From: Bradyrhizobiaceae bacterium PARB1
Lineage (GTDB): Bacteria; Pseudomonadota; Alphaproteobacteria; Rhizobiales; Xanthobacteraceae
NCBI GenBank assembly: GCA_002256345.1
Contig: NKIY01000002.1
Location: 744,001-808,000, forward strand
DNA: 64,000 bases
Reading direction: 5' to 3'
A model generated the notes under the pieces. It worked only from the letters and a program-made list of their open reading frames with translations. It made no database searches and was not told the origin of the DNA. Shown here piece after piece: positions 40,579 through 64,000 of the stretch (its first letter is position 1; every line of letters begins with the position of its first letter). The position numbers and the translations under genes are program-made.

Positions 40579-40619
40579 GACTTCAACTCCTCAGTATTCA
40601 TCGACCGGGCGACCGCGCG

Positions 40620-45751: not shown

Positions 45752-45946
45752 TCGCGACGCTACCGATGTTGCAGATACACCATGAAGAAATCATACAATT
45801 CCATCCTACGCTTCACGATCACATCGTGCGCCGGCGACGGGATGCGTGACACTCGTCTTCGCGCGAGCCATCATCCGCATTGAATCGCCCTTCGCTTGTC
45901 GGCCAACCATTCCCCCTAACCTCCTTCATTCGATCCGGAGCCGGAC

Positions 45947-46108: not shown

Positions 46109-46142
46109 CCTCGTCCGGCTCCGGCTGGACGCATCGTGGGCT

Positions 46143-46298: not shown

Positions 46299-46395
46299 CG
46301 CTTGCTCACCGTTCTCCAGCGTACGATCCAGTCTCGCTGCAGAGCGGCCGCACAAGGACGCCCTGCCGACATCGCCACGGACACCACCCCATCTT

Positions 46396-47130: not shown

Positions 47131-47321
47131 AGGCTATTCCTTCGAGCGATCGTCGCCTCCCGACGCTGCGGCGAGGTCCATCCGATCGGAATGACGAGAC
47201 GAAAGCTCTGCCGTCGCCGCCGCGCGCAGGTGGACGCGCTTGTCGGCGGCTCCCGAATAGATCGGGACCGGCAGCCTTCATGAGTGACGGTGACGCCAGG
47301 GCGGATGCCCCGGCGTCACCG

Positions 47322-47711: not shown

Positions 47712-47787
47712 GGAGTGGCGTGGCGTCCCGTTGACCGTCAGTGAAGTGAAGCAACCTCGCGGCCAAATCGTGGCACCGCGTCGCATA

Positions 47788-48000
47788 TTATCGTCGACCG
47801 TCTTGCTGCGAGATGACCTTGGCGGCGCGGTCTTCCGACTTCGCCTCTCGACGACGGCGGTCCGCCAAAATCTGGCGGCGTCTATGGTCGGTCATTTTGC
47901 GCCAGGAACGGATCTCTTCCGTCGTCCGCCAGCATCCGACGCACATGTCCTTTCGCCGGTCGAACTTGCAGACATCCACGCACGGGGACTCGATTGCCAT
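47788..48000 (-). CDS. DUF1289 family protein
   Basis: 70 residues, MAIESPCVDVCKFDRRKDM followed by CVGCWRTTEEIRSW. The four Cys in SPC...C......C..C are the DUF1289 signature, possibly a metal or Fe-S site. The basic C-terminus (RRRQILADRRRREAK) resembles that of family members. ATG 48000. An upstream extension is not conserved-looking. Confidence 0.8.
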   Translation of the reverse strand: MAIESPCVDVCKFDRRKDMCVGCWRTTEEIRSWRKMTDHRRRQILADRRRREAKSEDRAAKVISQQDGRR

Positions 48001-48019
48001 CTTCGGAGGCTGTAGCCGT

Positions 48020-48325
48020 CTACACGCGACCGTCGAGATACGAACGCGCCGCGTCCACGGCGGGACGGCACGCCGGCGCGGCATCGTCGGCGACCTGTTC
48101 CGGAGACCTGCGCTTGAGCCAGACATCGATCGCGATGCCGACCGCCCACCGCGGATCGTCCTGGACGCGCCGTGCGACGACTGGCAGCGCCGATGTCGTG
48201 CATGACTTCACCTGAGATATGATCGCGGTCGGGACCTGCGCCTTCGCAAGTCGATCTGTGAGCTCGGCCTGCAGCGGATCGAGAACGACCGCTCGAACGA
48301 AAAGATAGATGAGACTCTCAAGCAT
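48020..48325 (-). CDS. Hypothetical protein, 101 residues
   Basis: MLESLIYLFVRAVVLDPLQA, then helical sequence with two Cys (KSCTTSALPVV, APACRPAVDAARS). The N-terminal hydrophobic helix could be a membrane anchor. It is 19 bases upstream of the DUF1289 gene on the same strand. No motif recognised. Confidence 0.5.
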   Translation of the reverse strand: MLESLIYLFVRAVVLDPLQAELTDRLAKAQVPTAIISQVKSCTTSALPVVARRVQDDPRWAVGIAIDVWLKRRSPEQVADDAAPACRPAVDAARSYLDGRV

Positions 48326-48516
48326 TTTACACTGGTATCGCGCTCATATGTTGCGATCCGACATCACGTGAGCCGCCGATCAATGCTCACGCCAGAGGGG
48401 CCCGGACCATCCTCGACCGCTAGATAGGAGTCGAAATGGGGGCCGTCAAATGAACGTTGGACGTCGCTTGAATCACCTGCACGAATTCACGACGTACGCG
48501 CAACGGCCCACCCGTG

Positions 48517-50328: not shown

Positions 50329-50801
50329 GACTGTTCGTACATCCGAACCAGCCGAGGTATGTCGCCGTTCAGAGCGATCGCGCCCCAAGCGGTCAATTCG
50401 TCGGCATACTGTGGGGGAATTTCACTAAGGAGGAATATCTTCTTGCGAGAGGAGAACGCGACGCTGATCTCGGCAAAAGTGTTCGCGCCGACATACCCGT
50501 AAATGCCATTCTTATCAAAATTTGCAACTAGAACGGCGTAGGTCCTGGGATCCTTGATCTTGTTGATGTGCGCGACGGATACCGCCTTCTTGAAGGCCAG
50601 ATAGGATCCGGTGTCGTAGAGCTTCAAGTCGCCGTCCACATCGTCCGGAACGACCGCCCGGACGTTCAGTGTGTCGAGTTGGTCCTTGATCATGCGGATC
50701 TGGGCGGCGAAGGCCATGCTACCGCATACGACGACGCGCTTCGCCGCGAAGTGATCCGCGGTCGGCAGGTCGTCATGGCGGAGCGAGACCGCGCTCGACA
50801 T
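50286..50801 (-). CDS. Nucleoside 2-deoxyribosyltransferase-like protein (second)
   Basis: 171 residues with a Rossmann-like flavodoxin fold: KRVVVCGSMAFAAQIRMIKD, YAVLVANFDKNGIYGYVGAN, then TFAEISVAFSSRKKIFLLSE. The order (GS-motif strand, VLVAN, GxxG, FAEI with Glu) is that of the deoxyribosyltransferase/TIR-like superfamily, where the Glu attacks the sugar. ATG 50801 has GGAAAG upstream and overlaps the preceding gene by 29 bases. Substrate unknown. Confidence 0.7.
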   Translation of the reverse strand: MSSAVSLRHDDLPTADHFAAKRVVVCGSMAFAAQIRMIKDQLDTLNVRAVVPDDVDGDLKLYDTGSYLAFKKAVSVAHINKIKDPRTYAVLVANFDKNGIYGYVGANTFAEISVAFSSRKKIFLLSEIPPQYADELTAWGAIALNGDIPRLVRMYEQSCRHATAQLRFPQF

Positions 50802-51249
50802 CGAACATCTTTCCGCTGCCCTTGGCGAACAGCCACTCGAATTGGGTCGATCCCTGGAATCGTAACACGAACTCGTCGGGCGCGACCACACACCACTCAG
50901 GGATGTGAACAGGAAGATCCACAGGATATTCGGAGAAATAGACCGGCTGTCGCCGCTGCACGACCCGCCCTATCTCATAGCAGGTCGTCCTCCCGACATA
51001 TCCGCCAGGCGCGGCCACGTAGACGGCATCTGCCGAAAAGATGCGCTCCAACGTGGAACTCTGGATCTCTTGATCGCTGCTGGACGCATCGTCGGTCGCG
51101 AAACGCACGAACTCGACCCCATCGACGATCTCGGATCCCGACGGCGACACGATATCGAAACCCGACGCGGCAAAAGTTTCGAGGACGTCGAGCACGCCTC
51201 CATACCGCTCACGCCTGAAACTGCCAATGATCGCGATTCGCGCAGACAT
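50773..51249 (-). CDS. Nucleoside 2-deoxyribosyltransferase-like protein (first)
   Basis: 158 residues: RIAIIGSFRRERYGGVLDVL, then ADAVYVAAPGGYVGRTTCYE with the catalytic-type Glu in CYEIG, then QPVYFSEYPVD. This follows the deoxyribosyltransferase pattern (GSF at strand 1, D-V-hydrophobic, G..G....E.G). Divergent in sequence from the following family member. First enzyme gene of a four-gene minus-strand cassette. Substrate unknown. Confidence 0.72.
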   Translation of the reverse strand: MSARIAIIGSFRRERYGGVLDVLETFAASGFDIVSPSGSEIVDGVEFVRFATDDASSSDQEIQSSTLERIFSADAVYVAAPGGYVGRTTCYEIGRVVQRRQPVYFSEYPVDLPVHIPEWCVVAPDEFVLRFQGSTQFEWLFAKGSGKMFDVERGLAPP

Positions 51250-51295
51250 TGTGGCCCCCTACGCCACGATGTCCGATTCTCGGCTCGCACGCACT

Positions 51296-51511
51296 TCAGT
51301 CTTTCGGCTCCTTGTCCGCGGCCGGTCTGGACGATTTGGATCGAAGCTCGCGCTTCATGGCGATCTCGATCCACTCCCACGATTTCATCCCGCGGGCCTC
51401 GGCCACTTTCTGTGCGGCGTCCAGAACCTCCGGCAGCACGTAGATCAGCGTCGGCACGCGGCCGTCTCGTCGGACCGAGGCCTTTCTGCCGCTCTTTACT
51501 GCCTTCGCCAT
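51296..51511 (-). CDS. Small basic regulator or antitoxin-like protein, 71 residues
   Basis: MAKAVKSGRKASVRRDGRVP, then TLIYVLPEVLDAAQKVAEARGM and SWEWIEIAMKREL. A short strand (PTLIYVLP) followed by two helices resembles a ribbon-helix-helix dimer unit. The longer frame to 51745 is not protein-like. It lies 46 bases upstream of the deoxyribosyltransferase pair on the same strand and is the likely regulator of that cassette. Confidence 0.6.
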   Translation of the reverse strand: MAKAVKSGRKASVRRDGRVPTLIYVLPEVLDAAQKVAEARGMKSWEWIEIAMKRELRSKSSRPAADKEPKD

Positions 51512-51638
51512 CGTCGACCGATCATCCGTATCGCGACGGATAGTAGCGACGCTGATCACCGGCCAGAATAGGCATTTGCAATAAAGTTGTTGAATAAATC
51601 GTCGGACTGAATTAGATATCTGAATTTTATGTTTTTGG

Positions 51639-51667
51639 TTGACATCGCTAGTATTTTCTGATCTAAG
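51639..51667 (+). promoter_or_regulatory. Possible sigma-70 promoter for the plus-strand array
   Basis: Perfect -35 TTGACA at 51639, a 17-base spacer and a weaker -10 TCTAAG (4 of 6). It lies 130 bases before the first gene of the transposition module in an AT-rich intergenic region. Confidence 0.5.
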
Positions 51668-51798
51668 AACGCTCGCCTTAGGGTCTCCCACCGATCCGCT
51701 TCGCGACCCATTTGATGCTCCCTCCCCGGACGATCGAACGCGCATGAAACGCGATCGACGCGTCGCATCCCCATGTCTCTTTTGCTTTGCGAGGATGA

Positions 51799-52404
51799 AT
51801 GCAGACGACGAATGCCTTGTTCATCGGCCACAACACCGAGCGTGCCATTCCCGTGCGTAGCTACCTGCACCGCGACTTCCTTACTCAGACCGCCCTCGAC
51901 GGCGCCGTGCGTCGCATCGAATTCCACCCCAGCCTCCGCGTCGACGACACCATCCAGCGCGTCGATGCCGTGATCGTCGACAGCGATTTCGGCCGACATG
52001 CCATCGACCTCGTGGACGATCGTCCGCCCTGCGATCCCCAGGCGGAAGGCCTCATGCACCTCGCTTTCGCGGAGGGATGCACGGGCATCATGACCGTCAC
52101 CTCCGCCGACATCAGGCGCGAGCCGCGCTTCACATCGGCGCGCACCGTCTGGCGTCGCCGCAGCGACACGCTGCACGTCGACGACCGCGAAGCGGTGATC
52201 GGTGCGCTCGAAAGCGAGGGGCCGCTGCAACTCCGCGCCCTGTCCGGCCTCATCCACACGCGCCGCGGGCTCGAGGCCGTCGTCCATACGATGGCGTGCG
52301 AGGGGTCCGTGGTGATCGATCTCACCGAGCCGCTCGACGACCGTGCGGTCGTGCGCGTCGGTCCCCGCGCCGTCGGCACCGCCGTCCTCGCCTACGGCAC
52401 GTAG
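51799..52404 (+). CDS. Degenerate TnsA-like paralog 1
   Basis: 201 residues. Clear paralog of the protein at 53056-53634: both have VDD....VDA with an acidic IDLV/IDCE strand, the block VTSADIRREPRFTSARTVW (the other reads VTRADVMAEPGFANARAVW), then a winged helix (ESEGPLQLRALSGL). The order of a short alpha/beta half followed by a winged helix, and the VT.A....E....AR pattern, also match the TnsA at 57259. The catalytic Glu-Asp-Lys set of TnsA is not preserved (no VK motif), so it is probably inactive as a nuclease. First gene of the array. Confidence 0.6.
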   Translation: MQTTNALFIGHNTERAIPVRSYLHRDFLTQTALDGAVRRIEFHPSLRVDDTIQRVDAVIVDSDFGRHAIDLVDDRPPCDPQAEGLMHLAFAEGCTGIMTVTSADIRREPRFTSARTVWRRRSDTLHVDDREAVIGALESEGPLQLRALSGLIHTRRGLEAVVHTMACEGSVVIDLTEPLDDRAVVRVGPRAVGTAVLAYGT

Positions 52405-52488
52405 CTCTCCGAACCATCAACAAAGTCCTCCCCGTCGGCGCAGACGATGGCGCCGACGGCCCACCTGTGCCAATCGAAGGAGAAATCG

Positions 52489-53022
52489 ATGCAAGAGGAC
52501 TGGAAGGACGGCGTCTGGCAGCGGTACGGCGAATTCTTCGATTGGAATACCCCCTATTCCATCGGTATTCATTCGCTGCCCATCGGATGGCGCGAACTGG
52601 TCGACACAACTCTCGACCGGATCTCGCTCGTCGTGGACACGGACAAGCTTGCGAGTCTCTCGATCCATCGCCTCTCTCGCGAGCGCGGCATCATGAAGAT
52701 CCGTTGGACCGCCTCGACTCTCCGCTTCGAGGCCATCGTGACGGACATCATCGATCGGGCGTCCGCGCGGTCCAGCGTCACTTGCGAGACTTGCGGCGAA
52801 GCGGGCGTCAGATATCGCGTGGGCGACAATGCCGTCGCAGCATGCGCGGTGCATCGTACTCCTGGCGCGCCTGAGATCCGGCCGGCCTGGCCGTCGATCA
52901 GGATCGAACGCGAGATCGTCAGCGCCCGCGTGACGATCAAGAGCTGTCGCGTCTACGACCGCGACGCCGACAAGTTCGTGGACGCGGCGCCCGCCGATCT
53001 GGGCATCGGCGATCTTTCCTGA
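52489..53022 (+). CDS. Zinc-finger-containing hypothetical protein of the transposition module
   Basis: 177 residues, starting at ATG 52489 after GAAGGAG. It has WRELVDTTLDRISLVVDTDK and SIHRLSRERGIMKIRWTAST, then a probable zinc site VTCETCGEAGVRYR...CAVH (CxxC, then C..H). Dimensions and position between the two TnsA-like paralogs suggest a DNA- or protein-binding accessory. No family recognised. Confidence 0.65.
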   Translation: MQEDWKDGVWQRYGEFFDWNTPYSIGIHSLPIGWRELVDTTLDRISLVVDTDKLASLSIHRLSRERGIMKIRWTASTLRFEAIVTDIIDRASARSSVTCETCGEAGVRYRVGDNAVAACAVHRTPGAPEIRPAWPSIRIEREIVSARVTIKSCRVYDRDADKFVDAAPADLGIGDLS

Positions 53023-53055
53023 TCAGCCCCACATCACCCGAACCCGGAGGCAAAA

Positions 53056-53634
53056 ATGGCCGCACGCGTGCGCCGTCAATTCATGTCGCCCAAATGCCGC
53101 TCGCCGGTGCCCGACCGCGGCGGCATAGGTCACGACCTGCTTGTCCAACTCTCGCTCGATCCGGAGATCTCCGAGATCGGCCACCTCGACCAGGTTGCCA
53201 TGGACGATCTGCTCGTCGACGTGGATGCAATCACCATCCGCCGTGATGATGGTGTCTGTTTCGCCATCGATTGCGAAGGCCTGAGGCGCGGAGGCGACAT
53301 CGTGGACGACGGCCTGGTCTGGGTCGCTGCGGGCATGATGGGATTCCAGCGGCTGCCGGTGACGCGCGCCGACGTCATGGCGGAGCCGGGCTTCGCGAAC
53401 GCGCGAGCCGTATGGAGCTATCGCGACTGCACGATCGATCCCCGCATGAGGTTCGAGATCATGAACCTGCTGCATGAGGATGGTCCTCTCCGCCTTCACG
53501 AAGTCTGTCAGCGCGTCCCGGGACCGCGCGATCCCGTCGCCACCATCTTCGCCATGTGCTGCGCCAATCTCATCGAGATCGATCTCGGCGAGATGCTCGA
53601 TCAGCACACCATCGTCAGGGCTCGCGGCATCTAA
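53056..53634 (+). CDS. Degenerate TnsA-like paralog 2
   Basis: 192 residues. Aligned by eye along its length with the protein at 51799-52404: MDDLLVDVDAITIRRDD with FAIDCEG, then VTRADVMAEPGFANARAVW, EDGPLRLHEVCQRV (winged helix) and IEIDLGEMLDQHTIVRA. The TnsA-like catalytic Lys is missing, since the residues after the core strand read IDCEGLRRG rather than VKP. It precedes the protease gene by 40 bases. Possibly a structural or target-DNA-binding TnsA relative. Confidence 0.6.
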   Translation: MAARVRRQFMSPKCRSPVPDRGGIGHDLLVQLSLDPEISEIGHLDQVAMDDLLVDVDAITIRRDDGVCFAIDCEGLRRGGDIVDDGLVWVAAGMMGFQRLPVTRADVMAEPGFANARAVWSYRDCTIDPRMRFEIMNLLHEDGPLRLHEVCQRVPGPRDPVATIFAMCCANLIEIDLGEMLDQHTIVRARGI

Positions 53635-53673
53635 CGCCGTCGCGACAGAACGTTTCATCAAAGGAGGCATCGC

Positions 53674-55611
53674 TTGGCCGAGAACGACGACTTCGAAGAG
53701 CTCGACATCGAAATCGAACCGACCGTCCGGACGCGTCCGCTGTCCGCCGAACGCTGTCTCGTCGAGGCGAGCCTCTCGCTTTCCATCGACGACGCGGCGC
53801 GCGCCGCGCTGCGATCCGATGCCCTGCTCACTGCCGCCGTGCAGGTTCCGAACTCGACCTGGGTAAGACCCGTCAAACGGGTGTTCGACCGCATGTCCGG
53901 TGCCGACTGGCAATCCATCGTCCGTTTCGAGAAACCGACGAAATTCCAGAAGGTCGAAGACGACGCCTTCGAAATCGCGAAGTCGCTCGCTGAGGGCAGA
54001 TCGATCGCCTATATCGCTCCAGCCGACCTCCTGCCGGGCGAGTTCGTGCGTGCTGCCGACCTCGTCATCAAGGTGCGAGCGTGCGATCGTGAAGTGCTCG
54101 CCCGCGCGATCGCACGCTATCTCGATGCGGGTCCCGTCGATCCGTCCAAGCTGACCGACGCGACGGCATTGACGCTTACCCAGGCCAGCATCGCCTTCAG
54201 GCCCAGTGCGACCCCGGCGGAGATCTCTGCACGCATCGCGAAGATGTGCGAGGTGAACACCCCCGCCTTCGGCGACGACGTTCCGCTTCTCCAGGATGCC
54301 CCGGAATTCGGCGAGTTCAGAACTTGGGGTCTCGAGGCGATCCGCAGCTACCAGGAATTTACCGAGAATAGAAGCAACCTCACGTTCAGCCAGATCGAGA
54401 ATTCTGCGATCCTGTTCGGACAGCCCGGCCACGGCAAGACAACCGCGATCGCGTCCTTCGCGCGCAGCATCAACGCGGCCGCTTTGATATCAACGTCGAT
54501 CGCCGATCTATTTTCGAACGGCCCCGGGTTCCTCGACTCATGCATTAAAGAATCGATCGCCATCTTCGATCGCGCAGAAGCGCTCGTCGCATCCGGCAAA
54601 TCGTCCGGCGACGGACGGCCCGTCGTGATTCTGATCGACGAGCTTGACGCGTTGCCGTCCAGAATCGGGTTGGACGCGAGGTCTTTGTCGTGGTGGTCAG
54701 CGCTCATAGCACAGTGGCTGCTCCTCTGTTCGAAGCCGCGCGAGAATATCTTTCTGTTCGGCTGCACCAATCACCTCGAGCGCGTAGACCCCGCACTGCG
54801 CCGGCCCGGACGCTTCGGCCGATGCATCGAGATGAAAGCGGCCGATGCGGCCGGGGTCTTGTCAATCACCCGGCGCCATCTCCGCGGCGCTCTGGCCGAT
54901 GTCGATCTCGCGCCCTTCGTCGACGTGGCAGGCGGCCGCTCGGCCGCCGAGATCATGCAGGTCGTCAAGACGGCGAAGTCGCGGGCGCGTCTGGAGGCGC
55001 GCGCCTTGCGCATCGACGATCTGATTTCGGCTGCTCTGCCGTCCGGCGACCTGTCGCCTGCGGATCGCCGTCTCATCGCCATCCACGAAGCGGGGCACGT
55101 GACCACCGCTCTTGCAGTCGATGGCGACCACGTCGTCAGCGCCGCAATCGGTGGCACTGACGGAGCACTCGGCGCCACCACGTTCTCGGCTGCGACCGAA
55201 ATCGTCACCCGCGAGACCAGGGAGAAGGCGATCATCGTCATCCTCGGCGGCCGCGCGGCCGAACTGATCGAGCGCGGCGTCGGAAGCGGCAATGCCAGTG
55301 ACGATCTCGCCACGGCGACCAGTCTCGTCGCGTCGATGTTCCTCACCGAAGGCTTGGGCGCTTCGCTCATCCATTTCGGGACGACCGAGAGCCTCCAGCA
55401 CATGCTGCGTGCCGACGTCGTCGTTCGCGCCGAGATCGACAAGACCCTGAACGGCTTGATGGACCGGGCCGTCGATGTCCTCCGCCGTCACCGGGGCGCG
55501 CTCAACGCCATCGCGCGCGAGTTGGAGGCACGCCTCTTCATCTCCGGCGACCGGGCCCGCGCGCTCTTCGCCGAAAACCCTCCAGAGGAGACTCCTGCAT
55601 GCTCAAGGTGA
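53674..55611 (+). CDS. Soluble FtsH-like AAA+ zinc protease
   Basis: 645 residues from TTG 53674, with AAAGGAGG at good spacing. The N-terminal about 210 residues are soluble and unrecognised. The AAA+ module has GQPGHGKT (249-256), VVILIDELDALPSR (about 317-330) and ALRRPGRFGR (second region of homology, Arg finger). It is followed by an M41 peptidase domain with HEAGHVTTAL (471-480) and the third zinc ligand region GNASDDLATAT. Order and motifs equal FtsH, but the two N-terminal membrane helices are absent, so it would act in the cytoplasm. It likely unfolds and degrades a component of this element or of the host. Unusual in a Tn7-like locus. Confidence 0.88.
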   Translation: MAENDDFEELDIEIEPTVRTRPLSAERCLVEASLSLSIDDAARAALRSDALLTAAVQVPNSTWVRPVKRVFDRMSGADWQSIVRFEKPTKFQKVEDDAFEIAKSLAEGRSIAYIAPADLLPGEFVRAADLVIKVRACDREVLARAIARYLDAGPVDPSKLTDATALTLTQASIAFRPSATPAEISARIAKMCEVNTPAFGDDVPLLQDAPEFGEFRTWGLEAIRSYQEFTENRSNLTFSQIENSAILFGQPGHGKTTAIASFARSINAAALISTSIADLFSNGPGFLDSCIKESIAIFDRAEALVASGKSSGDGRPVVILIDELDALPSRIGLDARSLSWWSALIAQWLLLCSKPRENIFLFGCTNHLERVDPALRRPGRFGRCIEMKAADAAGVLSITRRHLRGALADVDLAPFVDVAGGRSAAEIMQVVKTAKSRARLEARALRIDDLISAALPSGDLSPADRRLIAIHEAGHVTTALAVDGDHVVSAAIGGTDGALGATTFSAATEIVTRETREKAIIVILGGRAAELIERGVGSGNASDDLATATSLVASMFLTEGLGASLIHFGTTESLQHMLRADVVVRAEIDKTLNGLMDRAVDVLRRHRGALNAIARELEARLFISGDRARALFAENPPEETPACSR

Positions 55612-55865
55612 CCATCGAGCTCCTTCCCGGCGGAGATCCCACGCGTCGTCGCAATCTCGGGATCATGACGATCGCCAACAAATCCGACTTGGCTCCGATC
55701 AGCGACTACGATGTTGCCGGCTCTGAAGGCCACAACCCGTTCTCGGGCGCGCGCGCCTGGACGGCGGAGGCAAGCGTCGAAGCTCATGACCGTTCGCGCT
55801 CGGTCTGGGCGCTCGTCGCGGCGGCAGCCCAGGCACTGGCGGATGCGGATCACGTCGAATGGTGA
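55599..55865 (+). CDS. Small hypothetical protein coupled to the protease gene
   Basis: 88 residues: MLKVTIELLPGGDPTRRR, NLGIMTIANKSDLAPISDYD and a helical C-terminus (SVWALVAAAAQALADADH). It overlaps the protease gene by 13 bases, so the two are translated together. A small alpha/beta fold of this type recurs in alphaproteobacterial genomes with no known function. It may be an adaptor or substrate of the protease, by position only. Confidence 0.7.
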   Translation: MLKVTIELLPGGDPTRRRNLGIMTIANKSDLAPISDYDVAGSEGHNPFSGARAWTAEASVEAHDRSRSVWALVAAAAQALADADHVEW

Positions 55866-56439
55866 TCGGCTCTCCAATGTTCACGTTCTGTTTCGAATCC
55901 TTCGCGTCCCGGGTCCCCGAGCGCAACAGGCGATGAGCGCCGGATCGCCCGAAAAAGCGTCCTGTGCAAAATTTTTTTCAACTTTTTTTCGGGGCATGGC
56001 GGAGCCTCAGCCGCGCTCATCGACGACGCATATAGGCTCATCTTTCATGAGCAATATCAGGTGGATATCGAATCCTTGAAATCCGTTCGCGCGTACGAAC
56101 AGGCCCGAATTTCGGATCCTTGGGCCGATCTACAGCCGTTCAGGTCGAAATCATCGAAACGCGGCCGCGACTCTCACGATACGCCGGCAATCACGCGCTT
56201 AGGCTCGGCAGACGAATACTTGAAGATTCGAATACCGTCGATCTCGCAATTCGGGTGAAATTCACAGGTGGCCGACCGAGCGAAATTCGCGTTCGGACGC
56301 CACAAAATACACCTTCAGGGCGCAAGGTATATTGTCTTATATCGGAATATCATCTTATTTTTGGGAGCTGGCGAGCTCTTGAGGGGGTGGACTCTCTGAA
56401 TGCCGATCACCACACTCATCCCCGGCCGAACGAACGGCC
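55866..56439. other. Non-coding stretch inside the transposition module
   Basis: No gene seen. It holds homopolymer runs (ATTTTTTT and CTTTTTTT at about 55968-55990) and an AT-rich segment at about 56325-56360 with a possible plus-strand promoter (TTGTCT, 17 bases, TTATTT). This is a natural place for an internal transposon end or a regulatory region, but no repeated 20-base binding sites were recognised by eye. Confidence 0.4.
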
Positions 56440-56478
56440 AAAAAGAAAACCCATCGTTCACGCCAAATGAACGATGGG
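56440..56478 (-). terminator. Intrinsic terminator of the predicted small RNA
   Basis: Read on the minus strand: CCCATCGTTCA stem / TGAACGATGGG with loop TTTGGCG, then TTTTCTTTTT. No protein gene on the minus strand ends here. Confidence 0.85.
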
Positions 56479-56617
56479 CCTAACCTTCGGTGACGCCAAT
56501 TTCGAAAACCGTCACTCGCCACGGAGATGAGAGCACCGGTCGCCAAACCGGTTCTCTCGCAGCACGTGGAATCTGGCACGCGGCCTCGGCCCGCGCAAGA
56601 GTCCAAGCTGCTCCTTG
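56440..56617 (-). ncRNA. Predicted structured small RNA, about 178 nt, antisense to the tnsA-side leader
   Basis: On the minus strand a perfect -10 TATAAT (56628-56623) is followed by about 178 bases with no sensible reading frame that ends in an intrinsic terminator. Three hairpins are visible in order: a 12-bp stem at 56529-56558 (one mismatch), GTGACG/CGTCAC at 56490-56515, and the terminator stem. Each contains the sequence TTGGCG in or next to its loop (56541, 56494, 56461). The -35 box is weak. It does not match the 6S, 4.5S or tmRNA features I know. Confidence 0.55.
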
Positions 56618-56622
56618 GTGTT

Positions 56623-56628
56623 ATTATA
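56623..56628 (-). promoter_or_regulatory. -10 box of the predicted small RNA
   Basis: Perfect TATAAT on the minus strand in the context GGGGTATAATAACACC. The region 16-18 bases upstream lacks a clear TTGACA, so activator dependence or chance is possible. Confidence 0.5.
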
Positions 56629-56686
56629 CCCCTAACCTTTCGCGAATCGATCACGAACGGTCGATCGACGCCACGGAGACACGAAA

Positions 56687-57109
56687 ATGCCCCTGCCCCC
56701 CAGCCACACTGTTCTGGCCGCGCTTTTGGCCGAACATCTCGTCGACGCAATGCCCGCCACCGAATTGCTTGCACTGACACGCGGCGAATTCGGCTACATC
56801 GCCATCGGTGTTCACCGTACCGTTTTCGACCCCAATTCGCCGGGTCATGGTGCGCTGGTCGCGGTTTTCGGCTCAGCGATGCCCCCTGTCGAGAAGGTTC
56901 GTGCGGCCGTGATGCATCGCAGCGCCTGCCCGCCCTTCTGGCTGGCCAATCGTCACGCTCGCCTCCACCCCTCGCCGGCGCTGCCGGATCCGGACCTGTC
57001 CCCGGAGCAGATCGCGCTGGATCAGATGCCCGATCCGGACGAGCACTGGGACAACCTGCCCGCAGCGGCGCTGTCGCGGTCCTTCAGCGCAGCGATGGCC
57101 TCGACCTAG
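56687..57109 (+). CDS. Hypothetical protein upstream of tnsA
   Basis: 140 residues: TVLAALLAEHLVDAMPATELLALTRGEF, then FGYIAIGVHRTVFDPN and a Pro/Asp-rich tail. ATG 56687 follows GGAG at eight bases. Its promoter region is 60 bases from the start of the antisense small RNA. A hairpin with an 11-bp stem follows the gene. No family recognised. Confidence 0.6.
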   Translation: MPLPPSHTVLAALLAEHLVDAMPATELLALTRGEFGYIAIGVHRTVFDPNSPGHGALVAVFGSAMPPVEKVRAAVMHRSACPPFWLANRHARLHPSPALPDPDLSPEQIALDQMPDPDEHWDNLPAAALSRSFSAAMAST

Positions 57110-57127
57110 CCACAGAGGTCTGAGTTC

Positions 57128-57161
57128 CGACGGGAGCCGGGTCAAGCCACGCTCCCGTCGG
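57128..57161 (+). terminator. Stem-loop between the 140-residue gene and tnsA
   Basis: Stem CCGACGGGAGC / GCTCCCGTCGG, loop of 12 bases. There is no U tract, so it is possibly a processing or pausing structure rather than a true terminator. Confidence 0.4.
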
Positions 57162-57258
57162 GTCCGATAGCCCACCTCGTCCGCCTACCGCAGATCGCCC
57201 GCCGGATTCCTCCGCGCGGCACGGTCCCGCTCGCCTCGCGTCAGCCACCGGAGTTTCA

Positions 57259-57912
57259 ATGGATCACTTCCCCCCCACGCTGCCCACGCTCGCCAGCCGG
57301 CTTCCCGCATTGAAATCGCGCTCGTCGTGCCGCGGCTTCACCATCGTCGGCAATCGCGTGGTCGTGTTCGAATCCCATCTCGAGCTGATGGTGATCTGGA
57401 TGCTGGCCGCCATGTCGGAGGTCGCCACCATCATCGACCAGCCGCCACCGGTGTCCTACCTCGATCACGCCGGCGTTGAACGCACGCACACGTTCGACTT
57501 CCTGGTGACGATGCGCGACGGCCGTCGGCTTTTCATCGCGGTGAAGCCAGCAAAGCGGGCGCGTAAAGTGCGCGCCGTTGCCAATGCGATCGCCGCGCAG
57601 CTCGCAGCGGGCATCGCCGACGAAGTCCACGTCGTGACCGACGCGAACTTCACCCGGACGGAGCGGTACAACGCGTCCCTCATCGCGCAATGTGCACGCT
57701 TTCCCGTCACCGAAGACGACGAAACCATCGATCGCATCACCGCCCGGATGACCGGAGCGGTGAAGGTCGGGGACCTTGTCGAAATTTCCGGGCTCGCGGG
57801 CATGGGCTTCAGGGCGATCATGCGCCTCATTGGCCGCGGCCTGCTGCAGCCCGTCGCGACCAGGCAGCGCCTCACCACGAACAGCTACATCGTCCGCCGT
57901 CCCTCCATCTAG
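57259..57912 (+). CDS. tnsA: TnsA-like transposon endonuclease subunit
   Basis: 217 residues. The restriction-enzyme-like core has ESHLELMVIWMLAAM (Glu42), HTFDFLVTMRDGR (Asp80) and FIAVKPAKRARK (Lys96), matching the E-D-xVK catalytic set of Tn7 TnsA. It is followed by VVTDANFTRTERYNAS and a C-terminal winged helix (VGDLVEISGLAGMGFRAIM) that would contact TnsC. TnsA nicks the 5' ends so that transposition is cut-and-paste. Shorter than Tn7 TnsA (273 residues). It starts at ATG 57259. Confidence 0.8.
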   Translation: MDHFPPTLPTLASRLPALKSRSSCRGFTIVGNRVVVFESHLELMVIWMLAAMSEVATIIDQPPPVSYLDHAGVERTHTFDFLVTMRDGRRLFIAVKPAKRARKVRAVANAIAAQLAAGIADEVHVVTDANFTRTERYNASLIAQCARFPVTEDDETIDRITARMTGAVKVGDLVEISGLAGMGFRAIMRLIGRGLLQPVATRQRLTTNSYIVRRPSI

Positions 57913-57926
57913 TCGAGGACAACATC

Positions 57927-58211
57927 ATGACGAACTCCATGCGCTATTTCGAACTCGAAGACGATTTGAGCGACATCCTCGAAGGGGCGGACGACGAACC
58001 GCTTCGTATTCCCCGCTACGAACCCATCATCCCGACGCAAGGCGACGCACGCGACCGCTTCGTTCGCGCCACGGCAAAGCACCTCAGCATTCTGCGGCCC
58101 GGATTGCGGATCACCGTGCTCGATTGGGAGCGGATGCTCGATGCCGCTTTCGCTGACACTTACACCGACGCGGTGACGGGTCGCGTCGTGACCATGCGCG
58201 ACATCCGCTAA
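57927..58211 (+). CDS. Small hypothetical protein between tnsA and tnsB
   Basis: 94 residues: FELEDDLSDILEGADDEP (acidic), then RATAKHLSILRPGLRITVLD, with DAVTGRVVTMRDIR at the end. It starts 14 bases after tnsA. No family recognised. The conserved position suggests a dedicated part of this element. A terminator-like hairpin follows. Confidence 0.6.
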   Translation: MTNSMRYFELEDDLSDILEGADDEPLRIPRYEPIIPTQGDARDRFVRATAKHLSILRPGLRITVLDWERMLDAAFADTYTDAVTGRVVTMRDIR

Positions 58212-58218
58212 GCGCTCC

Positions 58219-58248
58219 GGATCGGGCTTCGCGCGTCCGATCCAGCTT
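58219..58248 (+). terminator. Terminator-like hairpin before tnsB
   Basis: Stem GGATCGG / CCGATCC with an 11-base loop, followed by AGCTTTTTATC. It may attenuate transcription from tnsA into tnsB. Confidence 0.5.
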
Positions 58249-58339
58249 TTTATCGACCCCATGCGCAACTAATGCCTGCCGCGCCGACATCTTCGAGCGC
58301 GATCGCCCCATCACGCCCTCAGACAGGAGATTCAGAACT

Positions 58340-60439
58340 ATGCCCGATGCTGCCCCGATCAACATCTCCGGCCTCGACAGGATCGTCGTCAGGCCCAAGC
58401 GCGAGATGAGACTCGTCGAAAAGACCAGCGATGGATATGTCCTCGCGGAAAGGGGCACGGTGCCCCCATTGCACGAAGCCTTCTCGCACGATCGCATCCG
58501 GGAGATGCTGCATGTCGGAGCCATGCGGATCGAACGCGGCTGGTATCACGAAGACCGGGCCAAAGCGCGCCTGTTCGCGGGCGTCAACTCCATGGCCCAG
58601 CTCCCGCCCACGGAGCAGAAACAGATCTTCCGGCGCCACCATTACGTCACGGAGTTCGTGAGGCGGGAGACATCCGAAGGCAGCAAGGTCAAGCGGACCG
58701 ACGCCAGCATCGCCGAGGCACTGAAAGCGATCGATGTCGACTTCGCGCCCATTGGACGCTGCGATCAGCCACTTATCGTCCACAGACGTCCCTCCGCGCG
58801 GACCTTCCGTCGCTGGCTGAAAAGCTACGAAAAGCACGGAGCGGACCCGCTGGCGCTCCGCACCCTTCACCGGCGCTGCGGCAACCAGTTGTCGAACATG
58901 CATCCGGAGGCGATCCGTCTGCTGAACGAGCACGTGCTGCTGTACTGCGACGAGCGTCGCCGCAGCGTGAAAAAGGTGCATGGTCTATTGGCGGTGGCAG
59001 TACGCGAGCTGAACAGGGAACGCGAGCTCCGCGGCGTCTCGCCGATCGACGTTCCCGCCAAGTCGACCTTGCGCGCCCGCATCGCCGCTCTCAACCAGTT
59101 CGAGGTGTACGCATCGCGACACGGCATCCCTGCCGCTCGCGCGAAGTACGCGGCCAACAGCGGCGGCCTCGACGTGGACCGACCGCTCCAGCACGTCCAG
59201 CCGGACGAGTGGCGAGTTCAGCTCCACACGATCGTCGATCGCCTGGGCATCGGAGCCAATTTCACCGAGGAGGATCGGATCGCGTTGAAAAAAGAGCGCC
59301 TTTACGCATGCGCCGTGGTCGATATCGCGACGCGCTGCATCATAGGCCTGCGCCTGTCCCGCAAATCGGACACCCCCAACGCGATCGCCACTTTGGCGAT
59401 GACCGTTATCGACAAAACCGACATCGCCAAAGCCGCGGCCTGCCTGTCGGACTGGCCCATGCATGGCCCTGCCCATGTCATGTCGCCGGACGCGGGGTCA
59501 AACTTCATCGACGAGGAGTTCCGCGCCAGGCTGGCCGACCTCAAGACTACTTACGAAAACGCTCCCGCCGGATTGAGCCACCTTCGCGGCCATGTCGAGC
59601 GATTGTTCGGGACGATGCATACCAGCCTCATCGAGGAGTTTCCGGGCAGGTCGTTCTCGAATGTTGTCGAAAAGGGCGCCTACAAAGCCGAGGATCGTGC
59701 CGCGATCTTCAGCGCAGAGCTGCCCAGAATCTTCGTGCGGTGGGTGGTCGATCACTATCACCATACGCCTCACGTGGGTCTCGGCGGCGAGACGCCGTAC
59801 TGCGCGTGGCAACGATTGACTCAGAAGTTCGGCGTCGATCCGTCGCCGAACCGCGACCAGCGTCGCGAAATCTTCGGGGTCGAGTTGGAGCGCGCGCTCG
59901 ACCAGAACGGTGTTCGCGTCCAGGGACTCTTCTATCAGTCCGAGGAGTTGCAGCGGTGGCGGCGCCAGGTGGGCGATACCAAGGTGCGCGTCCGCTTCGA
60001 CGAAACCGACATCGGCTACGTCTCCGTCTGGCTCGGCGACGACTGGGTCACGGTCCCGTCGGTCAGGACCATCGTCCGTGGCGTCCACCTCGACACCTGG
60101 CTCGAATCCGTTCGTGATCTACGGCGACGCTTCGCGGAAGGCGCGAAGATGTACGAACACATCGTCGACGAGGCCCTTAGGGCGATCGGCAAGATGGCCA
60201 ACGACGCGATGCGCCGTGTCGCCATCGATCGGACGAGCCCCACGGCCGCCGAACTCGACCAGACCGAAACCGGCCTCTTGCTCGGATTTCAGATCGAGGA
60301 CGATGCCGACGACGATCACGGCGACGGCGGAATTCTCGGCCGGGGCATTTCGGTCGCAAACTCGACGCCTCCGAGCGACCCGACCGGGCAGCATCGCCCG
60401 ACCAAAGCTCGCGACGACGACTACGGGCTCGACGACTAG
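58340..60439 (+). CDS. tnsB: TnsB/TniA-like DDE transposase
   Basis: 699 residues. The RNase H-like integrase core has Asp289 (VQPDEWRVQL), Asp384 (MSPDAGSNFIDEEF) and Glu420 (RGHVERLFGTMHT), giving DD(35)E spacing. The N-terminal helical DNA-binding domains contain SARTFRRWLKSYEKHGADP and LRARIAALNQFEVY, and the C-terminal Mu-type beta-barrel contains FYQSEELQRWRR and VSVWLGDDWVTV. It binds the transposon ends and joins the 3' ends to target DNA. The acidic C-terminal tail resembles the region that engages TnsC. Starts at ATG 58340. Confidence 0.93.
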   Translation: MPDAAPINISGLDRIVVRPKREMRLVEKTSDGYVLAERGTVPPLHEAFSHDRIREMLHVGAMRIERGWYHEDRAKARLFAGVNSMAQLPPTEQKQIFRRHHYVTEFVRRETSEGSKVKRTDASIAEALKAIDVDFAPIGRCDQPLIVHRRPSARTFRRWLKSYEKHGADPLALRTLHRRCGNQLSNMHPEAIRLLNEHVLLYCDERRRSVKKVHGLLAVAVRELNRERELRGVSPIDVPAKSTLRARIAALNQFEVYASRHGIPAARAKYAANSGGLDVDRPLQHVQPDEWRVQLHTIVDRLGIGANFTEEDRIALKKERLYACAVVDIATRCIIGLRLSRKSDTPNAIATLAMTVIDKTDIAKAAACLSDWPMHGPAHVMSPDAGSNFIDEEFRARLADLKTTYENAPAGLSHLRGHVERLFGTMHTSLIEEFPGRSFSNVVEKGAYKAEDRAAIFSAELPRIFVRWVVDHYHHTPHVGLGGETPYCAWQRLTQKFGVDPSPNRDQRREIFGVELERALDQNGVRVQGLFYQSEELQRWRRQVGDTKVRVRFDETDIGYVSVWLGDDWVTVPSVRTIVRGVHLDTWLESVRDLRRRFAEGAKMYEHIVDEALRAIGKMANDAMRRVAIDRTSPTAAELDQTETGLLLGFQIEDDADDDHGDGGILGRGISVANSTPPSDPTGQHRPTKARDDDYGLDD

Positions 60440-60484
60440 CGCCCGTCTCCCAACAAGCCCCGCTGCCAACCTGAAGGATGCTCA

Positions 60485-61006
60485 ATGCCTCATGACAAGA
60501 TCATGCGCGACAGCGCAAAAACCAAGGGACGCGCTCTGCTCCTCTTCGGAGGCGCGGTCGAAGCCGACGCCGCAGTCGTCCGATCGTTTCGTGCGGCGGG
60601 CATCGATCCCGCAACGATCGTCCTGGCCGACGCAAATGCCGCCAAAACGCTCAGGGATCTGCTGCTCCGCATCGCGGACGCTCTCGATCTTACGGTGTCA
60701 CGCAACGAAACTATGCTGAGTGCCGCCGCGCGGATCGGATCGACCATGACCCGTCGCGGTCAGACGACGGTTCATCTGGTGGACATGTATCGCACGACGA
60801 AGCTCTCCACCGCATCGACCCATGCGGACTTCCTATGCGCCGAACTGTTCCGGTTGCTGCAGCATTGGGGCATTTCCCTCATCGTCGGTCGACAGCTCGG
60901 GCCCATCGGGATCGGCGAAATCATCATGGAACGTGAATTCAGGATGGTGCGAGTCGAAGAGCTCAGCGCCGGTGATGTTCGTTACCTGTTGGGTGGCCTA
61001 TGGTAG
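60485..61006 (+). CDS. TnsC-like paralog without ATPase motif (1)
   Basis: 173 residues. Layout parallels the AAA+ core of TnsC in this element: GRALLLFGGAVEADAAVV sits where GPTGVGKS would be, TTVHLVDMYRTTKLS corresponds to the Walker B strand (VLHIDELQHVTQHLS), and GISLIVGRQLGPIG, then EEL.AGDVRYLL follow, as in RISIVISAVDTVLP. The Walker A Gly-Lys-Ser and Walker B Asp-Glu are gone, so it cannot hydrolyse ATP. It overlaps the next gene by seven bases. Probably a TnsC partner or capping protein. Similarity judged by eye. Confidence 0.6.
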   Translation: MPHDKIMRDSAKTKGRALLLFGGAVEADAAVVRSFRAAGIDPATIVLADANAAKTLRDLLLRIADALDLTVSRNETMLSAAARIGSTMTRRGQTTVHLVDMYRTTKLSTASTHADFLCAELFRLLQHWGISLIVGRQLGPIGIGEIIMEREFRMVRVEELSAGDVRYLLGGLW

Positions 61007-61524
61007 GCAGCAATCACGCTCGGCTTCGCCCTACCGACACCGCCAAGCCGGTCGAGCGCGCTTGCGGCCGCGGACTCATGGTCGTCGGCGACTGGTGTGC
61101 GACAGACCGGGCCATCTACGACGCGCTTGGCTTGGCGAAAGCGTGGAAAAATCTGCTCGTCCTCGACGACCCAGCACCAACCCTGCGGCGGTTCTTTCTC
61201 GCCGTCGCGGCGGCGGCCGGCGTCAGCATCCCTGCCCGTATGCCGCTGATCGACATCTCGTCACACGTCAACTCGTCGCTGCTGCGGGTGGGCATTACCG
61301 GAATCTGGTGGATGGGCGGGTGCATCAAGCCTGGTTCCTGCGTGGCGACCTACGACCATGTCCATGACCTGTTCGATCTCTTCATGAAGGATCACGGCAT
61401 GTCGCTGATCGTCGAAAGCAGCGCATGGCCCGTCAACGCAGATGTCGCGAGGCTGTTCAAGGTGGTCGAAGCCGGGAGGCTGGCTGCATCTGACATCTAT
61501 TCCATCCTCGGAGGTACTCGATGA
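61000..61524 (+). CDS. TnsC-like paralog without ATPase motif (2)
   Basis: 174 residues, sister of the preceding protein: GRGLMVVGDWCATDRAIYDA in place of Walker A, NLLVLDDPAPTLRRFFLA, GITGIWWMGGCIKPGS in place of Walker B, then GMSLIVESSAWPVN and VEAGRLAASDIYSILGG. The two proteins share the terminal (hydrophobic) AGRLAASDIYSILGG / LSAGDVRYLLGG block. ATG 61000 overlaps the upstream gene, and the end overlaps tnsC (ATGA). Catalytically dead by sequence. Role is likely in regulating TnsC filaments or target choice. Confidence 0.6.
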   Translation: MVGSNHARLRPTDTAKPVERACGRGLMVVGDWCATDRAIYDALGLAKAWKNLLVLDDPAPTLRRFFLAVAAAAGVSIPARMPLIDISSHVNSSLLRVGITGIWWMGGCIKPGSCVATYDHVHDLFDLFMKDHGMSLIVESSAWPVNADVARLFKVVEAGRLAASDIYSILGGTR

Positions 61525-62567
61525 CGACGTCGAGCAAACCGGACGCGGCCGCTTTGCTGTTCGAACAGCATTCGCGCTCCGAGACATACTCGGTCATGGA
61601 GAAGCTGCGTGCGCAGTATGCCCGCACGCCGCGGGACGGCCTCCTTGCGGAGCGCTTCGAAAAACTGATCGGTGCCGCGGTGCAACGGCACGACGTCACG
61701 CGCCCGGCCGGCTTCGACAATCGCGGCGTCGGGAGCGGTCTCGCTATCATCGGCCCCACCGGCGTCGGAAAGAGCCGCGCCATCCGGCGGTTTCTGAGCC
61801 GTCACGTCGTGCTCGCCGGCTACGACGATCCCAAGTCGCCGTCGCCCCTCATCAGCGTCTCGAGCCCTTCTCCCTGCACCAGCATGCAGCTCGCCCGCGC
61901 CATCCTGAGGCGCTCCGGCTATCCGATCGAACGCGACCTTCCCGCGCACCGGTTGTGGGAAATGGTCTGGGAACGACTGGATCTGATCAAGAAATTCGTG
62001 CTGCACATCGATGAGCTGCAGCACGTCACGCAACACCTGTCCGAAAAAGACATGCAGGAGGTGGTTAACCTTCTCAAGCATGCGATGGAAGCGCGCCGGA
62101 TCTCGATCGTGATCTCCGCGGTCGATACCGTGTTGCCTTTCCTGCAGTTCGATCCCCAACTTTTCCGGCGTTTCGACTTCATGGAATTCGAGAAGATTTC
62201 GCCCAGCACGCTCGGCGATCTGCAACGCGCGGTCCACGATTTCGCGAAATCCGCGGGCGTGACCGCCGACGAAAGCCTCGAAACCCATCGTGACTTCTAT
62301 TCACGCCTGGCACATGCGGGTCTCGGTGCCTTTGGCTACTCCATCGTCCTCACCCATCTCGCCATAGAGCGGTGCCTGAAGTCCGGTGACGACAAACTGA
62401 CGGTCGAGCATTTCACCGGTGCCTTCGCTCAAAAGTCCGCCTTCCCACTCGACAGAAATCCCTTCAAGGCGGAGCGCTGGCATGAAATCGATTGCAGCGC
62501 GCTATTCGTAGAGAAGCAGATCGCGCCGCCTGAACCATCCGTCAAGAACCGGAGGAAGAAACGATGA
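61521..62567 (+). CDS. tnsC: TnsC/TniB-like AAA+ transposition regulator
   Basis: 348 residues. Walker A GPTGVGKS (78-85), Walker B VLHIDELQH (Asp164, Glu165), sensor region ISIVISAVDTV and Arg-containing QLFRRFDFMEF are intact. TnsC polymerises on target DNA with ATP and links TniQ/TnsD to TnsAB. The basic tail (KNRRKKR) would bind DNA or TnsA/B. It overlaps both neighbours by ATGA, indicating strict coupling with the upstream dead paralogs and with tniQ. Confidence 0.92.
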   Translation: MTTSSKPDAAALLFEQHSRSETYSVMEKLRAQYARTPRDGLLAERFEKLIGAAVQRHDVTRPAGFDNRGVGSGLAIIGPTGVGKSRAIRRFLSRHVVLAGYDDPKSPSPLISVSSPSPCTSMQLARAILRRSGYPIERDLPAHRLWEMVWERLDLIKKFVLHIDELQHVTQHLSEKDMQEVVNLLKHAMEARRISIVISAVDTVLPFLQFDPQLFRRFDFMEFEKISPSTLGDLQRAVHDFAKSAGVTADESLETHRDFYSRLAHAGLGAFGYSIVLTHLAIERCLKSGDDKLTVEHFTGAFAQKSAFPLDRNPFKAERWHEIDCSALFVEKQIAPPEPSVKNRRKKR

Positions 62568-64000
62568 TCACCGACGGATTGGCGCTCCGCCTGCCCTATC
62601 GTCTAGACGAATTTCCGTGCTGGTTCGTTTCGCGCCTCGCCGCGCGCAACGGACGCCCCACGAAAGCCTTCGCTGCGGACATGGGCCTGGACTCGCGGCG
62701 CATCGTCGACGGTCAAGCCGACGCGGTCGAGCGTTTGGCCGCGCTGGGCGATGTCCGTTTGACCGACCTGATGCACGAAACGCAGATCAGGGGCGTTGAC
62801 GGAAGCTATGCGCTCCGGGATCAGGAATTGCGGACAGCCGATCTGCGCCGGTCGAGGATCCTGATCTGTCCGGAATGCCTCGCGGACGACATTGCTTCGT
62901 CAGATCTGCCACCGTCGCAGGCCGCCTATGGGCGCATGACGTGGACGCTCGCCAACATCCGGACCTGCGCCATCCACGGGCTCGCGCTCATGGAGGTCGT
63001 CAAGGACGTCATCTCCCATAACTTTCCCGACTGGTGCGAGCATGTGGCGTCGGCGCTGAAGAATTTGCCGAAGCTGGCCGCGTCCGCAGCCCGCCGCCCC
63101 GCATCAACCCTCGAAACCTACATCTCCGACCGGCTGGAAGGACGCCCTACCAGCAGCTGGCTCGATCGCTTCCCCTTGTTCGCGGCGTGCCACGTCGCCG
63201 AGACGATGGGCGCCGTCGCCTCGTTCGGCACGCGGGTCAACCTAAGGAAGCTCTCCGAAGATCAGCGCTACGTTTCCGGTCACGCCGGTGCCGACATCGC
63301 CGCCGGGGGTGAAAGTGCAGTCGTGTCACTCCTGTCCGACCTGCACCGGACCTATCTCGACAAACGAACCGGCGACGCCGCTACCGCCCAGGGCGTGTTC
63401 GGCAGGCTGTACACCGTTCCAGCCGGTGGCATGGTCGGTCCCGCCTACGATCCCCTACGGTCGGTGATCCGCGGGTATCTGTCGGACCGTTTCGCGCTTG
63501 GTCCCGGCGACCACGTCTTCGGCTCGCCGGTTCCGGAGCGACGGTGGCACAGTGTGCGCACAGCATCGAAAGAGTACGGCCTGACGCCGAAGCGGTTGCG
63601 CAAGATCGTCCAGGCGGAAGGCTTGATCTCCGATCCGTCTCTACCCGATCGTGACGTTCTGTTCGACGCTCAGATCGCCGACCGGATCTTCAGGCGCGAG
63701 CAGGATATGATCAGTCGCAACTCGGTCAGAGGCTACATCAATGCCAGCGTTACAATGACGAGGGTCCTCATAGACGATGGCTTCATCCCGCTTCACGCCG
63801 CCGGGGCGGGAATGAACAATTTCTGCCTGAAGTCGGAGATCGACGCTCTGATGACCAGGCTCACATCGTCCGCAGACCCGGTTTCCGCCACACCGGGAGG
63901 TACCGCACCGATCGCACAGGCGGCCAAGCGATCCTATCGGCCGTCGGGGACGATCATCCGCCTCATCCTCGAGGGCGGTCTGGCATGGGTCGGACGCCTG
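62564..64000 (+). CDS. tniQ: TniQ/TnsD-like target selector, partial (runs off right edge)
   Basis: 479 codons visible without a stop. N-terminal LRLPYRLDEFPCWFVSRLAARNG is the TniQ signature, followed by the zinc finger ILICPECLADD, then TCAIHGLAL (C..C, C..H). Later segments have helix-turn-helix-like stretches (SVRTASKEYGLTPKRLRKIV; TMTRVLIDDGFIPLH), consistent with target-DNA recognition as in TnsD. The target site cannot be deduced. ATG 62564 overlaps the tnsC stop (ATGA). Confidence 0.88.
   Translation, partial: MITDGLALRLPYRLDEFPCWFVSRLAARNGRPTKAFAADMGLDSRRIVDGQADAVERLAALGDVRLTDLMHETQIRGVDGSYALRDQELRTADLRRSRILICPECLADDIASSDLPPSQAAYGRMTWTLANIRTCAIHGLALMEVVKDVISHNFPDWCEHVASALKNLPKLAASAARRPASTLETYISDRLEGRPTSSWLDRFPLFAACHVAETMGAVASFGTRVNLRKLSEDQRYVSGHAGADIAAGGESAVVSLLSDLHRTYLDKRTGDAATAQGVFGRLYTVPAGGMVGPAYDPLRSVIRGYLSDRFALGPGDHVFGSPVPERRWHSVRTASKEYGLTPKRLRKIVQAEGLISDPSLPDRDVLFDAQIADRIFRREQDMISRNSVRGYINASVTMTRVLIDDGFIPLHAAGAGMNNFCLKSEIDALMTRLTSSADPVSATPGGTAPIAQAAKRSYRPSGTIIRLILEGGLAWVGRL

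Follow-up and report, generated by a model that had tools for sequence, protein, structure and literature searches.

Tn7 carries its transposition genes in the order tnsA-tnsB-tnsC-tniQ/tnsD, has TGT...ACA ends, duplicates 5 bp of target DNA and inserts just downstream of a conserved gene, glmS, which its tnsA end faces; in addition, the TnsA fold of Tn7 binds TnsB. Mu has no TnsA, and there the host protein ClpX remodels the MuA transposase complex, offering a mechanistic model for AAA+ remodelling of a DDE transposase complex. For type I-F CRISPR-associated transposases (CASTs), an AAA+ unfoldase has likewise been tied to a Tn7-like transposition complex: as reported in PMC12326709, ClpX raised I-F CAST insertion in human cells, with toxicity, deletion of clpX cut the propagation of a TnsB-carrying selection phage ~200-fold, and ClpX was hypothesised to disassemble the post-transposition complex. 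Disassembly of TnsC filaments is stimulated by TnsB (PMC9371665), and structure 1t0f, by its title, has the TnsA fold of Tn7 binding TnsC. Extra TnsC genes and catalytically impaired TnsA are already in print, as Tn7-like loci in which a further tnsC adjoins tnsB or the catalytic residues of TnsA are mutated (PMC10293859, PMC8649781); in the accessible parts of these two papers we found neither a protease, nor a TnsC lacking its Walker motifs, nor an intact TnsA accompanied by an extra inactive TnsA-like protein, and the words 'protease' and 'peptidase' are absent from the main text of PMC8649781.

We analysed a 64,000-nucleotide stretch of Bradyrhizobiaceae bacterium PARB1 (G000:C26:744001-808000), hereafter the window, whose positions serve as coordinates throughout. 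All of it (1..64000, no strand assigned) is the interior of a single Tn7-like transposon, with mapped ends and TTGCT at both. Beside a complete core, the element encodes two TnsA-like and two TnsC-like proteins with altered active sites and an FtsH-like protease, none of which belongs to Tn7 itself. The original prediction, made for 51799 to 64000, had called this composition undescribed among Tn7 relatives, and no published Tn7-like element of this kind was found in the open-licence literature, judged mostly by titles and the starts of abstracts; one paper that came up with Tn7, TnsC and FtsH together is, going by its listing, a general review (PMC6389857). We propose, with a little less than even confidence, that the element is a cut-and-paste Tn7-like transposon at nrdJ whose pseudo-TnsA and self-encoded unfoldase/protease remodel or limit the transposition complex. 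The unfoldase described for I-F CASTs is a host protein, whereas here it is an element-encoded AAA+ protease of another family.

The right end was found first, by comparing elements. Sequence past tniQ in the related genome G190 terminates in ...TTCCATCACA, and the DNA beyond it matches genome G089 behind tgt, G089 being an empty site. The G089-matching DNA is split in G190 into C17:3508-3968 and C17:58265-58341, with a 5-bp overlap (GCGGC) and TGTG at the left junction; the G190 element is therefore 54.3 kb long and holds its TnsA-like and FtsH-like genes, at ~48.3-51.3 kb on the contig, well inside, the FtsH-like genes 44 kb from its left end. Right ends of the G190 form occur 176-211 bp behind tniQ in five of 20 tniQ loci (the window, L043, L044, L045 and L046), looser matches in three (L052, L061, L062) and none in 12. 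In the source genome, G000, the left end reads TTGCT|TGTGGGGTCGGACAAAGTTGTCCATCC at -16305 (C26:727695) and the right end, in reverse complement, TGTGAGGAGCAGTCAGAGTCGTCCATCG|TTGCT at 64607 (C26:808607), giving an element of 80,913 bp with TGTG termini and the 5-bp target duplication TTGCT on both flanks. The left end, TTGCT followed by a TGTG end with GTTGTCC, is the sole left-end pattern match on the + strand in the 181 kb scanned, and TTGCT directly follows the right end. Comparison with empty sites, the route recommended by the original prediction, confirmed the insertion in G190 (against G089), and the mapped G000 element is more than six times larger than the range 51799-64000. A transposon end between 55866 and 56687, a position singled out in advance as fatal to the prediction, was sought and not found; the ends that were mapped lie elsewhere, and the G190 empty site puts the TnsA-like and FtsH-like genes inside.

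The G000 insertion lies 14 bp behind the nrdJ stop codon, duplication included, and leaves nrdJ intact. This gene encodes a vitamin B12-dependent ribonucleotide reductase (the 1225 residues tested score 2321 bits, the cut-off being 1737), and 16 of 18 genus genomes, the source genome among them, have DNA matching it, one of them over 163 bp only. At the site without an element in G155, nrdJ is followed by ~1.7 kb and then by DNA homologous to position 67450 onward. The sister element of G244 ends at C73:44101 and C73:122356, both with AAGAC, again 14 bp from the nrdJ stop codon, and in G180 a left end with TTGGA is seen 20 bp from that codon (duplication included), so that the left ends of all three lie behind nrdJ. 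Because G000 and G244 each repeat their own 5 bp at both ends, the two insertions look like separate events. TGT...ACA ends with a 5-bp duplication are thereby seen in G000, G244 and G190, and by the left end only in G180, and site-specific insertion behind a conserved gene in G000, G244 and G180. The finding has become firmer in this respect: it concerns a mapped, site-specific 81-kb element with independent relatives. The target selector for the nrdJ 3' end would be TniQ. Two left-end genes, though different, both close with a zinc-ribbon-like coding stretch, TGCGAYACNTGCGGC, located 50-63 bp ahead of the insertion (G000 -16380 to -16305; G190 C17 near 3968); it is a candidate for a motif recognised by TniQ.

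Other searches for ends yielded less. The left end of G199 was searched for and not found, its comparison with G170 giving the right boundary only, and other flank comparisons of related loci showed no clean empty site. Terminal repeats sought on the assumption of an end in the FtsH-tnsA gap or close to the 201-aa gene were not convincing, with chance-like repeat pairs in two loci (L048, L051) and one in the window, and a left segment common to L051 and L061, examined for ends, led nowhere. Stretches L144-L146 were scanned for ends only.

The core itself matches what had been predicted: a complete tnsA-tnsB-tnsC-tniQ set, with all named genes on the + strand, tight or overlapping junctions and coding-type codon composition. 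TnsA (57259..57912, +) matches Pfam PF08722 (Tn7_TnsA-like_N) at 5e-7 and is an intact PD-(D/E)XK endonuclease by its columns E38, E42, D80 and K96, invariant in 14 homologues. The DDE transposase TnsB (58340..60439, +) matches Mu-transpos_C at 5e-9 (rve at 1e-5 is below the cut-off), and its D289, D384 and E420 are invariant in 13 homologues. The AAA+ ATPase TnsC (61521..62567, +) matches Pfam TniB at 2e-20 and the target selector TniQ (62564..64000, +, the reading frame running on to 64396 past the window) matches Pfam TniQ at 7e-15, completing the TnsB, TnsC and TniQ/TnsD set that defines a Tn7-like element. With tniQ ~0.2 kb from the right end, the tnsABC-tniQ operon stands at one end of the element; ~73 kb of other DNA precede tnsA, because the tniQ side is the far end and the cargo end points toward the target gene. 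The element thus differs from Tn7 both in its target, nrdJ (and a place beside tgt in G190) and not glmS, and in its orientation, with cargo upstream of tnsA and the cargo end, not the tnsA-proximal end, next to the target.

Upstream of this operon are the two TnsA-like genes, encoding 201 aa (51799..52404, +; paralogue 1, family A1) and 192 aa (53056..53634, +; paralogue 2). The two proteins form one family (mutual match E 2e-17, 31% identity), whose profile matches that of TnsA at 93% and, in a swapped control, that of TnsC at 0.2% (hhalign). Two TnsA-like paralogues without an active site had been predicted; the family proved real, and in the profile alignment its Glu and Lys positions are lost, but the middle Asp of the three catalytic positions is kept (VDA). 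The AlphaFold model of the 192-aa protein (pLDDT 91) has three Protein Data Bank (PDB) matches at E < 0.001, all Tn7 TnsA-related: one is a chain of the TnsABCD transpososome 9bw1, and the other two, with rmsd above 5, are the TnsA chains 1t0f_A (TM 0.57) and 1t0f_B (TM 0.55). The 192-aa protein is accordingly predicted to have the TnsA fold. Sequence-only PDB searches were uninformative, giving two matches for A1 (E 1.2 and 1.7, the second being TnsAB) and three unrelated ones for A2 (E 0.17-1); the 192-aa protein had no match when searched against a genome collection, and neither the TnsA-like nor the TnsC-like pair has a Pfam match at E up to 1.

The TnsC-like proteins (173 aa, 60485..61006; 174 aa, 61000..61524, overlapping both neighbours; both +) share a family profile that matches TnsC at 94%, against 0.4% for TnsA in the swapped control. 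The Walker A site reads GGAVE-AD in the first and GDWCATDR in the second, compared with GPTGVGKS in TnsC; the Walker A Lys/Ser are missing, as is an Asp-Glu pair at the Walker B position, bearing out the prediction of two TnsC-like proteins without an active site. The model of the 173-aa protein (pLDDT 77, built on three sequences only, 3/5 models being poor) finds P-loop NTPase folds, KaiC and ORC subunits among them. In 391 genomes of the family, credible members of this TnsC-like family occur in two, with two further partial matches at E 0.001-0.009, and the pair therefore appears nearly private to this element and one sister. Loss of active-site residues in both families, together with this narrow distribution and the 28-29% identity of the two other TnsC-like copies to the first, is what would be expected if the extra TnsA-like and TnsC-like genes were decaying duplicates without function. 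We consider this distinctly unlikely: their frames are open with coding-type composition, the TnsC-like genes overlap start and stop codons of their neighbours, and the TnsA-like family is kept in 45 of the 391 genomes with a predicted fold of high confidence.

Between the TnsA-like genes and tnsA lies the gene of a 645-aa FtsH-like AAA+ zinc protease (53674..55611, +; Pfam AAA 1e-15, Peptidase_M41 2e-13). Its Walker A (GQPGHGKT) and HEAGH motifs are intact, as in M41 AAA+ zinc proteases, and like housekeeping FtsH it joins AAA and M41 zinc protease domains in one chain; unlike housekeeping FtsH, it scores 90.7 bits against the cut-off of 600 for the NCBIfam FtsH equivalog. By simple patterns, 10 of 14 FtsH-like rows have Walker A and 13 of 14 HEXXH, the exceptions including a gene split over two rows (L060), one ending at a contig edge (L062) and two without the Walker A pattern (L044 and L056). 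Small neighbours accompany the protease. A 191-aa protein (52447-53022, +) belongs to a small conserved family beside TnsA-like/FtsH genes, defined by a hidden Markov model, with five members in 3/20 related loci plus the window, further members at other TnsA-like loci and no Pfam family at a meaningful score; the start of an 88-aa gene (55599..55865, +) overlaps the end of the FtsH-like gene, and its family has seven members in 6/20 loci plus the window; a 140-aa protein (56687..57109, +) is, among the 20 loci, common only to the G244 sister element. The 191-aa family recurs upstream of TnsA-like/FtsH genes in L093, L094, L095, L099 and others, and so does a metallophosphoesterase-like gene (identified by eye; Pfam on L094 only). 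In the gap between FtsH and tnsA (55893-56223), four near-copies of TCGAATCCTTGA on one strand may form an operator; the same gap has two inverted copies in G244 and one in G180, and scattered copies number 17 in 121 kb where ~9 are expected. These repeats had been suspected to be TnsB sites, which the later mapped ends do not support.

To what extent do these accessory genes travel with the core? TnsB relatives occur in 43 of the 391 genomes, at 52 places, and the best 20 of the 51 places other than the window were fetched as related loci. A gene matching the FtsH-like model stands upstream of tnsA, co-directional with it, in 12 of these 20; the association predicted for the protease is thus recurrent, and the protease lies inside the mapped G190 element. 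The TnsA-like family is present in nine (E < 1e-4, TnsA cross-matches excluded), and the 140-aa and TnsC-like families in one each. Searched from the other side, TnsA-like hits merge into 57 loci, 31 with TnsB within 20 kb, where a rough hand estimate of chance gives ~0.3; in all 31, TnsB is downstream and co-directional, mostly 2-5 kb away. Two of them, G072:C53 and G159:C100, match at E near 1e-8, lie 357 bp away from TnsB and probably represent TnsA itself; leaving them out gives 29/55. Twenty TnsA-like loci were fetched: TnsB is in the stretch in eight and absent in 11, and L103 has none on its contig; L096 and L097 showed no FtsH match. Among 38 named loci of another collection (three being the G244, G072 and G190 contigs), 19 have FtsH (14 of them upstream and on the same strand) and 11 have the TnsA-like family; both are missing from most rhodobacterial loci. 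Two side observations belong here: a second, distant element of the source genome (G000:C22:264300-284200; L050) has the same gene order, a TnsA-like pair, FtsH, the 88-aa gene and tnsABC-tniQ, with TnsB at 36%, and L106 and L107, with no tnsB in their fetched stretch, have an RNase_T-type exonuclease gene downstream.

The genes are not bound to one another as a fixed unit, as the original prediction had them. Long stretches are common to G000, G244 and G180 (66-92% identity where compared, mostly 78-92%), and this identity extends as far as 52405, where the 201-aa reading frame terminates; since it breaks off there, the 201-aa gene is, on the alignments, part of the backbone shared with the two sister elements, its protein being 95% identical in G244 and 85% in G180. 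Past 52405, the DNA of G180 matches only 271 bp of tnsB and that of G244 only parts of tnsA, tnsB and tnsC (68-71% identity), and the sister TnsB proteins are 62 and 40% identical to that of the window. Because the FtsH-tns DNA has diverged while upstream DNA is shared, related backbones appear to have had their transposition modules exchanged. The FtsH/192-aa part is itself swapped, and the TnsC-like pair is confined to the two genomes in 391. Related cores occur one with and one without the module beside tnsA (L045/L046 at 91%, L060/L061 at 80% and L049/L053 at 73% DNA identity), related modules occur on different cores (L046/L112 at 92%, L049/L052 at 78%), and in G199 (L045) the module is found ~10 kb upstream of tnsA, with metabolic genes in between. 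From cores differing in module and modules differing in core, we infer that the module is an exchangeable accessory, not an obligatory part.

The same comparisons had raised the suspicion that the 192-aa/FtsH genes are a chromosomal target of several Tn7-like elements and not part of them, because the DNA of G190 and G089 ceases to be alike at the FtsH stop codon: a stretch of 6.6 kb up to and including FtsH is 92% identical in the two, and different tns cores follow it, a gene order reminiscent of glmS-[tnsA...]. This is ruled out for G190 by its empty site, which places the FtsH genes so far inside the left end, and with the left ends of G000 and G244 at nrdJ, far upstream, we regard it as highly improbable in general.

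Several results weigh against an assignment of the module to transposition. There is no TnsB within 20 kb at 26 of the 57 TnsA-like loci, some of them on short contigs, so the predicted co-occurrence with tnsB holds for the other 31 only; L045, L053 and L061 are tns cores without FtsH adjoining tnsA, so that the two genes need not be neighbours; a search located no right end in G180, a weak spot; and the module, being exchangeable and, by its distribution, partly independent of tns genes, leaves the finding weaker in that respect. The AAA part of the protease also resembles IetA of a defence system (2e-10). IetAS consists of the AAA ATPase IetA and a separate subtilisin-like protease, IetS. 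In the window protein the AAA part alone matches IetA and an M41 protease sits in the same chain, so it is not an IetAS system on this evidence, IetS not having been searched in the wider cargo. The loci without nearby TnsB and the resemblance to IetA could be read as showing a defence or anti-competitor cargo, with the TnsA-like protein as sensor of, or bait for, rival TnsB/TnsC (or phage proteins) and the protease as the enzyme that destroys them; the swapping of the module between different tns cores and the many defence genes carried by Tn7-like elements (PMC8649781) fit as well. Yet the fixed position and orientation upstream of tnsA (31/31 loci with TnsB within 20 kb) are unusual for ordinary cargo, and neither the TnsA-like protein nor the M41 part has a match among the PADLOC models. 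We consider the defence reading unlikely, if worth keeping in view.

Under the proposed role in remodelling or limiting the transposition complex, TnsA and TnsB would excise the element, TnsC would relay the target signal and TniQ would direct insertion to the nrdJ 3' end; ends, duplication and site are observed, and the enzyme roles are assigned by family. The exchangeable module upstream of tnsA, consisting of an inactive TnsA-like protein, the FtsH-like AAA+ protease and a small partner, would act on this machinery. The TnsA-like protein may be an adaptor that recruits the protease to the TnsABC-DNA complex, where the protease would unfold or degrade TnsABC after insertion or limit its amount. 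A contact of the protease or the TnsA-like protein with TnsABC is a hypothesis, which counts against this reading; the analogy behind it is ClpX. In this element and one sister, the TnsC-like pseudo-ATPases would probably cap or dilute TnsC filaments.

The remaining cargo includes a heavy-metal efflux region (26924-39444) with a P-type ATPase with an HMA domain, a cation efflux protein, an RND pump and an outer-membrane efflux protein. Three overlapping genes on the - strand (48517-51249), present in G180 and absent at that place in G244, may be a defence set; they encode a protein of the phosphorylase superfamily (PADLOC 'Effector PN-superfamily', 6e-23) and a partner that weakly resembles deoxyribosyltransferases. 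Outside the right end, between transposon and chromosome, an Abi_C/AbiJ-like gene with a small partner without a family match lies on the - strand at 64919-66300 (L010:3919-5300), a stretch to which the G244 and G180 loci have no matching DNA.

The disassembly of Tn7-like complexes after insertion is relevant to CRISPR-associated transposases. Elements apparently equipped with a dedicated AAA+ protease and a TnsA-shaped partner allow a direct test of it and could be the source of a natural disassembly factor, and the mapped ends, target gene and empty sites make this one usable for such tests. More speculatively, and with roughly one-in-three confidence, an alphaproteobacterial Tn7-like lineage may possess its own disassembly or quality-control machine, in which a pseudo-TnsA recruits an FtsH-like protease and, in some elements, pseudo-TnsC tunes TnsC filaments. 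If this is true, such elements would be independent of host ClpX.

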